A DNA stretch of 64,000 nt from NCBI GenBank assembly GCA_028822155.1, contig JAPKEJ010000004.1, positions 1 to 64,000 of the forward strand, in the 5' to 3' direction. The stretch comes from Porticoccaceae bacterium (lineage in GTDB: Bacteria > Pseudomonadota > Gammaproteobacteria > Pseudomonadales > Porticoccaceae). This document shows, piece by piece, positions 32,247 through 34,155 of the stretch. A program made the position numbers and the translations under genes. Position 1 is the stretch's first letter. Every line of letters begins with the position of its first letter. The notes under the pieces were generated by a model. It saw only the letters and a program-made list of their open reading frames with translations. It did not search any database and was not told where the DNA came from.

Positions 32247-32360
32247 TGGTGACCCTCTTTGGTCCCCTCGCAACAGCCAGCTATGAACTCCGCCAGGCCC
32301 GGAAGGGAGCAACGGTAGTGGTTACGCTGTGTGCCGAGGTGTGGCTACTGAGGGTCATCG
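32247..32360 (+). ncRNA. ffs: 4.5S RNA of the signal recognition particle
   Basis: The RNA partner of Ffh, needed for co-translational membrane targeting. The diagnostic apical segment CAGGCCCGGAAGGGAGCA (GGAAG tetraloop and symmetric loop) lies at about 32294-32311. The outer helix is formed by TGACCCTC (32250-32257) with GAGGGTCA (32350-32357). A position immediately upstream of dnaX is common in gammaproteobacteria. The exact ends are estimated from the helix. Confidence 0.93.
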
Positions 32361-32427: not shown

Positions 32428-34155
32428 ATGAGCTATCAAGTACTCGCCCGTAAGTGGCGTCCTAAATCCTTTTCCGAGACCGCTGGTCAAGAGCATGTAC
32501 TACAGGCGTTGATTAACGCGCTGGATAATGACCGCCTTCATCATGCCTATCTTTTCACGGGAACTAGGGGCGTAGGTAAAACAACTATTGCTCGAATCTT
32601 GTCGAAATGTCTCAACTGTGAAAAAGGTGTCTCTTCGGTTCCTTGCGGCGAATGCAGCAGTTGTAACGAGATCGATGAGGGGCGGTTTATTGATTTGATT
32701 GAGGTCGACGCCGCTTCTCGCACGGGTGTCGATGACATGCGAGATCTTCTCGACAATGTTCAATATGCTCCGTCTCGAGGTCGTTACAAGATTTATCTGA
32801 TTGATGAAGTGCATATGCTATCAAAGTCAAGTTTTGCAGCGCTCTTGAAGACTCTTGAAGAACCACCGCCCCATGTTAAATTTCTATTTGCTACTACAGA
32901 TCCTCAGAAGTTACCGATCACGGTCCTATCTCGCTGTTTGCAGTTCAATTTAAAAAATCTCAGCCCAGCTCGAATCGCAGAGCATCTTCAATTTGTTCTT
33001 GGGGAAGAAAAGGTCCCCTTTGATGAGGGGGGCATTTGGGCGATAGGCCGGGCAGCCGACGGCAGTATGCGAGATGCATTAAGTTTAACGGATCAGGCCA
33101 TAGGCCATGGCGGCGGTAACATTAATGAGGCTGACGTTAGTGCCATGCTGGGGACGATCGAGCGCCGGTTTGTAGTCAACATTTGTCAAGCTTTGGCGAG
33201 TCAAAGTGGTGTTGCACTGCTGGCCTCCATCGCGGAAATGGCTGAGCAATCGCCCGATTATGAGGCTGCGATGGCCGATATTCTGTCGATTTGGCATCAA
33301 GTAGCTATATTGCAAACTGTTCCGGAAGCACTCGACAAGGGGCTAAGTCATTTTGTTGAATTGGTCGCCTTGGCTGATACCGTGTCCCGTGAAGACGTTC
33401 AGCTCTTTTATCAGATTTGCCTTTTAGGCCGTAAAGATCTGTATATGGCACCGGATCAGCGGTCTGGTTTTGAGATGACGATGCTGCGCGCTCTCGCCTT
33501 CAGGCCCGCGACCAGTGGCAGACCAGTCGTTATTAGTTCGCCCCCACCAGAGGTAGTCCCCCCTGTAAAAAAGTTTGATGCCACTGACGTATCGGTGGCC
33601 TCCACTCAGCCAGCCCAGCCCGTAATTAACAATGACAAAAGTGTTAATGAGAGGCCGGGTGAAGTACTGGAGATTCAAGAAAATGAGAAAGAATCAAGCG
33701 AGGAACATGAAGCTTCTTCGCTCGTGCCATCAGAAGACCCCGAGTTAGTTGTGAGTATTATGCTTGATGACTTTACCTCTGAGAACTGGATAGATGTCAG
33801 ACGTCAGTTAACCATAGGGGCCTCATTAGGTGAGATAGCTAGTCACTGTCTATATCAATCACGACAAGATAATGAGCTAATTTTTGTGATCGACGATCAG
33901 GAAAACAGTCTCTATGACAGCAGTCATCAATTGGCTTTAGGTGTCGCTCTTACTGAGTATTTTGGCCAAGAGGTAACGGTGTCTATTAGCTCTGGCTTGG
34001 CTGAGACTGAGACGCCGCGGGCCGTAGATCGGCGAGAAACGGCAGAGCGTCATGCTGAGGCCGTAGATATGTTGAATGAGGACCCCGACGTAAAACGATT
34101 TAAACAACTTTTTGATGGTGTGCTTGATGAGCGCTCTGTCCAACCGATAGATTGA
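32428..34155 (+). CDS. dnaX: DNA polymerase III subunits tau and gamma
   Basis: The 575-residue tau product of the clamp loader. AAA+ motifs: Walker [11 protein letters not shown], a zinc module with four Cys (CLNCEKG to CSSC), Walker [10 protein letters not shown], sensor 1 ATTDPQK and sensor 2 GSMRDALSL. Domain III ends near residue 365; the rest is a linker plus a tau-specific tail that contacts DnaB and the polymerase. A slippery site at codons 380-382 should generate a shorter gamma protein of 383 residues. It is shorter than E. coli tau (643). Followed by ybaB and recR, the usual order. Confidence 0.97.
33567..33599 (+). other. Programmed -1 ribosomal frameshift signal in dnaX
   Basis: The heptamer A AAA AAG (33567-33573) is in the correct phase (codons GTA AAA AAG). 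After a -1 slip the next codons are GTT (33573-33575) and TGA (33576-33578), so the shifted product ends after one extra residue, as in E. coli dnaX. Six bases downstream, GCCAC (33580-33584) pairs with GTGGC (33595-33599), extendable by one T-G pair. AGAGG (33549-33553), a possible Shine-Dalgarno-like stimulator, is 13 bases upstream. Confidence 0.8.

Follow-up and report, generated by a model that had tools for sequence, protein, structure and literature searches.

The dnaX gene of the Porticoccaceae bacterium analyzed here very probably carries a signal for programmed -1 ribosomal frameshifting of the Escherichia coli type, a reading to which we assign a probability of about 0.93 on the basis of sequence comparison. 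The gene lies in a stretch of 64,000 nucleotides (positions 1 to 64,000 of contig JAPKEJ010000004.1), referred to as the window. Some of the ribosomes translating it would very probably slip back by one base and end early, such that a single gene gives rise to a long and a short protein. The mechanism as such is already known; what is seen here is that most members of one family of marine bacteria have retained its signal. A preliminary description of the locus had proposed such a frameshift, and this proposal is now supported by the individual sequence parts and by their conservation in the family, with the slip itself, its efficiency, the gamma protein and the role of gamma being those that we infer from the precedent of E. 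coli. The case rests on the relatives, because it is there that the heptamer, the spelling of its Lys-Lys pair, the -1 stop, the Shine-Dalgarno sequence and the fold are found to be retained beyond synonymous expectation.

The full-length tau frame of dnaX spans positions 32428..34155 of the plus strand (575 codons) and was assigned from the list of open reading frames and its match to E. coli tau (8gj0_B; E 2.5e-140), which pairs residues 1-366 of the window protein with residues 1-364 and, in a second, weak alignment, residues 430-574 with residues 499-643. The closest named relatives found were a Porticoccaceae and a SAR92-clade genome, with 86% identity over residues 1-367. Directly 5' of dnaX, Rfam places a gene for the small SRP RNA (32257-32353, plus strand), and the reading frames on its 3' side are presumably ybaB, recR and an rnd-type nuclease gene, to judge from their sequence.

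The slippery heptamer A_AAA_AAG is located at 33567..33573 (plus strand) in the exact reading phase initially reported, as established both by base-by-base reading and by script: it starts with the last base of GTA (codon 380) and continues with AAA (codon 381) and AAG (codon 382). In the -1 frame, the site reads AAA AAA GTT TGA, with the stop at 33576..33578 (plus strand). The predicted path for gamma (32428..33578, plus strand), which we re-derived by script, would thus follow codons 1-382 in frame 0, then read GTT and TGA in the -1 frame, giving the product of 383 residues with the C-terminus Lys-Lys-Val that had been suggested before. This product would retain the N-terminal part that aligns with E. 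coli tau (residues 1-366) and lack the C-terminal one (430-574). It had also been claimed that the stop lies just after clamp-loader domain III, as in E. coli. This statement holds in kind, but not in distance, since the last aligned N-terminal residue (366 in the window, 364 in E. coli) precedes the end of the product by 17 residues in the window and by 67 in the 431-residue gamma of E. coli. As a separate observation, the zero frame of one dnaX locus from the same genus (L097, genome G047) stops after codon 423, within repeated KEPSA-like codons that follow codon 399, and the C-terminal part of tau continues in other frames, reflecting either a sequencing error or a broken tau.

The window gene thus combines the features that define the E. 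coli type, namely an open tau frame, a phased heptamer, a -1 stop, an upstream Shine-Dalgarno sequence and a predicted stem-loop. In dnaX of E. coli K-12, A_AAA_AAG is likewise in phase and followed by a -1 TGA after one codon, with a Shine-Dalgarno sequence upstream and a stem-loop just downstream. The two genes differ in the position of the site (codons 381-382 of 575 in the window, 429-430 of 643 in E. coli), the distance of the Shine-Dalgarno sequence (13 versus 10 bases upstream), the length of the stem (8 bp versus the 11 bp given in a passage of PMC5009743) and the last residue of gamma (Val versus Glu). Taken alone, the window gene provides only weak to modest evidence for a frameshift signal, because 6.3% of its synonymous redraws (1,261 of 20,000) contain the heptamer and meet a -1 stop after no more than one codon; an in-frame A_AAA_AAG as such is present in 7.5% (1,497 of 20,000). 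There is one Lys-Lys pair in the window DnaX protein, and the 57 open reading frames of the window (19,413 codons) hold three in-frame copies of the heptamer.

About half of the ribosomes translating E. coli dnaX shift, and the region that is then missing, the C-terminal region of tau, contacts the polymerase. By analogy, ribosomes on the window gene would arrive at A_AAA_AAG and be held there by the pairing of the upstream Shine-Dalgarno sequence with 16S rRNA and by the stem-loop ahead. The tRNA-Lys, weakly paired to AAG, could then re-pair with AAA one base back, and the shifted ribosome would read GTT and terminate at TGA. The outcome would be a gamma protein of 383 residues, composed of the clamp-loader domains only, beside the 575-residue tau. 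A passage of PMC5009743 ties slipping on AAG to the presence of a sole tRNA-Lys. In a member of the genus assembled as one contig (G026), one tRNA-Lys with the anticodon UUU was found among the 30 of 35 tRNA matches read; the window's own assembly gave 13 tRNA matches, of which 12 were named by ARAGORN, none of them as Lys.

Searches for relatives matched dnaX in 45 of 50 genomes of the same genus and in 100 of 112 genomes of the family, genus included. From the 55 matched genomes outside the genus, 53 loci were fetched (all but G056 and G073), 52 of them readable at the site and one (L182) ending 5' of it. Counting copies that lie in frame between codons 340 and 540 and meet a -1 stop no more than eight codons on (slightly different limits were used for some counts), we found A_AAA_AAG in all 45 loci of the genus, including the window, and in 42 of the 52 others, a number that includes one locus (L134) whose A8 run and context look coincidental. 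Synonymous replacement of the heptamer in relatives had been named as an outcome that would speak against the frameshift; the heptamer is lacking in ten of the family loci. The position of the site ranges from codon 371 to codon 447, because the length of the linker varies. Within codons 355-480, the 97 readable family loci contain 109 Lys-Lys pairs, of which 87, one per site-bearing locus, are spelt A_AAA_AAG, whereas the other 22 are spelt AAA-AAA or AAG-AAA and never AAA-AAG. Given the amino acids and the codon use of each gene, only 3.9 of the 86 distinct sites should have the heptamer. Ten different codons, specifying nine amino acids, precede the Lys pair in the 86 distinct loci, with the A before the pair being given by construction, as the loci were chosen by the full heptamer.

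The -1 stop shows a similar excess. It follows within one codon in 67 of the 86 distinct loci, compared to an expectation of 24.4, and within eight codons in all 86, compared to 45.3, counts that are not independent, as the family sites share descent. The codon after the heptamer ends in T in 72 of these loci, against an expected fraction of 0.32. The conservation of heptamer and stop thus exceeds coding constraint, as had been anticipated for a functional site.

The internal Shine-Dalgarno sequence is the strongest signal at the family sites and again goes beyond coding constraint. In the window, the AGAGG motif noted earlier is located at 33549..33553 (plus strand), 13 bases 5' of the heptamer, and its duplex with the anti-Shine-Dalgarno sequence has an energy of -7.1 kcal/mol, close to the -7.4 kcal/mol obtained for E. 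coli K-12. For the 21 bases leading up to the site, the family mean is -10.2 kcal/mol, compared to -6.1 kcal/mol for synonymous redraws, and the pairing is more stable than the locus's own mean redraw in 84 of 85 loci. Energies of -6 kcal/mol or lower are reached in 85 of 85 cases at the site, versus 11.8% gene-wide, and the spacing between Shine-Dalgarno sequence and heptamer clusters at 10-14 bases. A second fold signal is apparent further upstream, where the mean z is -1.04 at a distance of fifteen codons from the site and -0.67 at twenty, and many members of the genus could form a hairpin (CCUCC...GGAGG) that masks the Shine-Dalgarno sequence. We do not accept this hairpin as a separate element, because the signal shrinks to z -0.31 +/- 0.16 (44 genus loci) and -0.27 +/- 0.13 (41 other loci) once the Shine-Dalgarno block is held fixed and the upstream codons are redrawn. 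The upstream signal is thus mostly explained by the Shine-Dalgarno block itself.

Downstream of the site, a hairpin had been described six bases after the heptamer, and a stem of 8 bp with the tetraloop CGTA is indeed possible at 33580..33599 (plus strand; GCCACTGA-CGTA-TCGGTGGC), forming the predicted stimulatory stem-loop. The segment 33572-33610 folds at -13.5 kcal/mol, with z -2.36 relative to dinucleotide shuffles and 3 of 200 shuffles being as stable. Against synonymous redraws, the window fold does not reach significance (z -0.95, p 0.145), but this test has little power for any single gene, since even the site of E. coli K-12 only reaches z -1.56 and p 0.057. The fold tests included 85 of the 87 family loci (excluding a duplicate and L107, where an N lies close to the site) and gave a mean z of -1.26 +/- 0.13 at the site, with values near zero or positive starting six codons further 3'; in a fuller version, z was below -1 in 48 loci and above 0 in 16, and p was at most 0.05 in 26. 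The stem-loop signal is thus clear family-wide, whereas the window by itself does not stand out from its synonymous redraws. Near relatives (L087-L089) retain the window stem only in part, and their best folds differ, as judged by eye. Because the stem sequences also differ between subclades of the family, as read from predicted folds, the structure seems to have been rebuilt over and over.

Two DnaX products from one gene can also arise in other ways. In Thermus thermophilus, they result from slippage on an A run (PMC5009743 and PMC1088944, in the parts devoted to this gene), which PMC5009743 describes as transcriptional. A run of As with nearby stops is what such slippage requires, and both are present in the window gene. 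However, the Thermus run comprises nine As, according to a passage of PMC1088944, whereas the window has six, and it is the occurrence of exactly six As in 83 of the 86 distinct family loci (seven in two, eight in one) that makes a transcriptional origin of the short product very unlikely. In addition, the internal Shine-Dalgarno sequence would be of no evident use to slippage. Outside the family, longer runs do occur at some sites, with ten As in L222 (codon 382) and L224 (codon 377) from the order and nine in L276 (codon 369) and L283 (codon 373) from the class, each in frame, ending in G and close to a -1 stop; these four loci could use transcriptional slippage instead. Split dnaX genes, which produce tau by frameshifting (PMC3711429, in its account of these genes), share A-run recoding with the window gene but must join two reading frames, whereas the zero frame of the window is open over 575 codons with no stop at the site. 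Caulobacter also has two forms of DnaX, but its gamma is released from tau by a protease, as outlined in a section of PMC5009743, whereas that of the window is predicted to arise by frameshifting.

It is also conceivable that selection acts on the protein or on the speed of translation rather than on the slip. A Lys-Lys pair necessarily accompanies the site, and 6 of the 10 heptamer-less family loci contain one, spelt otherwise, somewhere in codons 355-480, as might be expected if the residues were retained because they serve the protein, and the pattern of bases were coincidental. The count of Lys-Lys pairs strongly disfavors this explanation, as the kept site has the spelling A_AAA_AAG in 87 of 87 loci and the 22 other pairs never do, and both the -1 stop and the Shine-Dalgarno sequence are over-represented; we consider it the least credible of the alternatives, with next to no weight. 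A Shine-Dalgarno sequence combined with a stem-loop can pause ribosomes, and the signal sits after the clamp-loader domains, where a pause might aid inter-domain folding, with the slip and the early stop not being its purpose. Yet ribosomes could pause without a slippery heptamer or a -1 stop, and both of these are kept beyond expectation, and this explanation appears about as improbable as transcriptional slippage. Programmed ribosomal frameshifting is thus the reading that we retain.

The signal has not been kept throughout the family. The ten loci without the heptamer come from genus g14, in which L134 is a questionable exception, from genus g2 and from one member of g10, a pattern indicating loss in some lineages rather than decay everywhere, as far as can be judged from the sequences. 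Given that 10 of the 52 other members lack the heptamer, frameshift-made gamma would not be indispensable in this family. The mean G+C content is 0.425 in the eleven family loci without the heptamer (including the truncated L182) and 0.531 in the 87 loci with it. The gain of a tRNA-Lys(CUU) was considered as a route to loss and found no support: in the 15 genomes searched with a tRNA-Lys sequence, the lysine genes that ARAGORN could name were all UUU (27 of 30 loci run; a diverged CUU gene could escape), and the heptamer-less genomes G106, G110, G052 and G075 are among those with such genes. Of the five g14 genomes examined, three have only part of the tRNA-Lys(UUU) gene, which is interrupted by contig ends or by stretches of N, likely as a result of assembly or masking.

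Beyond the family, a search of the order matched 241 of 245 genomes (230 outside the family), and 80 loci were read among the matches listed, 60 at one per genus and then 20 chosen mostly from families in which the site is absent or patchy. In 29 of these 60 genera, among the matches listed, A_AAA_AAG is followed by a -1 stop at most eight codons away, with two of the 29 loci having runs of ten As and two having runs of seven. The total of 32 heptamer-bearing loci among the 80 read from the matches listed is not a rate, owing to the choice of the last 20. A search of the class matched 83 genomes besides that of the window, and 4 of the 69 loci read have the heptamer, which lies within a run of nine As in two of the four, in a sample that includes one locus from the same order (L288) and one that ends before the site (L302). 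Among 80 named loci, the heptamer is present in 3 of 3 from Microbulbifer and 4 of 4 from Marinobacterium, and it was found in none of 4 from Marinobacter and none of 40 from Pseudomonas. The latter result agrees with a passage in the 2012 review PMC3290774, according to which tau is the sole product of P. aeruginosa dnaX in recombinant E. coli. A statement in the same review, that most bacteria beyond the enterobacteria maintain no dnaX frameshift signature, fits the class sample but not the order, and part of a 2014 paper (PMC4066793) attributes dnaX frameshifting to E. coli and many bacteria. On a single-gene tree of 313 loci, we counted 27 changes of state, of which 22 fall within the order set and 4 within the family, numbers that are unsure because of long branches (L180 and L181) and do not tell gain from loss.

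In one family of the order (f26), a different heptamer, G_GGA_AAG, is found at dnaX codons 374-390 in 8 of the 9 loci read (L216, L242 and L355-L360). It is followed in the -1 frame by TAG after two codons in seven loci and by TGA after one in the eighth, and a stem-loop comes after it in each (mean fold z -1.40; 2 of 8 reach p 0.05). The upstream Shine-Dalgarno pairing is better than the synonymous mean in seven of the eight. Both G_GGA_AAG and C_CCA_AAG are highly shift-prone in E. coli, as stated in a section of PMC5009743, and we do not claim the swap as previously unreported. Two loci of another family, f32, contain C_CCA_AAG in dnaX (L199 at codon 412 and L361 at codon 411), with a possible stem-loop downstream and, in L199, also AAGGAG upstream.

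In the literature accessible under open licences, to which our search was limited, we found no report of dnaX frameshifting in the SAR92/Porticoccaceae lineage. Based on these comparisons, we lean towards the view that dnaX frameshifting is an old trait of the order that has been selected for its function, has had its parts exchanged and has repeatedly been dropped, making gamma a common but dispensable product rather than an enterobacterial speciality. According to this scenario, stem-loops would have been rebuilt, the site would have changed its position within the linker (codons 371-447 across the family), and G_GGA_AAG would have replaced A_AAA_AAG in f26, where it is present in 8 of the 9 loci read. 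Among the losses of the signal there would perhaps also be one in the ancestors of Pseudomonas.

The role of gamma has long been debated, as noted in a passage of PMC5009743. The marine family studied here, in which most members keep the signal and three lineages are without it, together with a related family that has another heptamer, may help to address this issue. Natural losses and a heptamer swap open the role of gamma to comparative tests, with signal-bearing and signal-less relatives forming natural pairs in which to probe both its function and the evolution of the signal.
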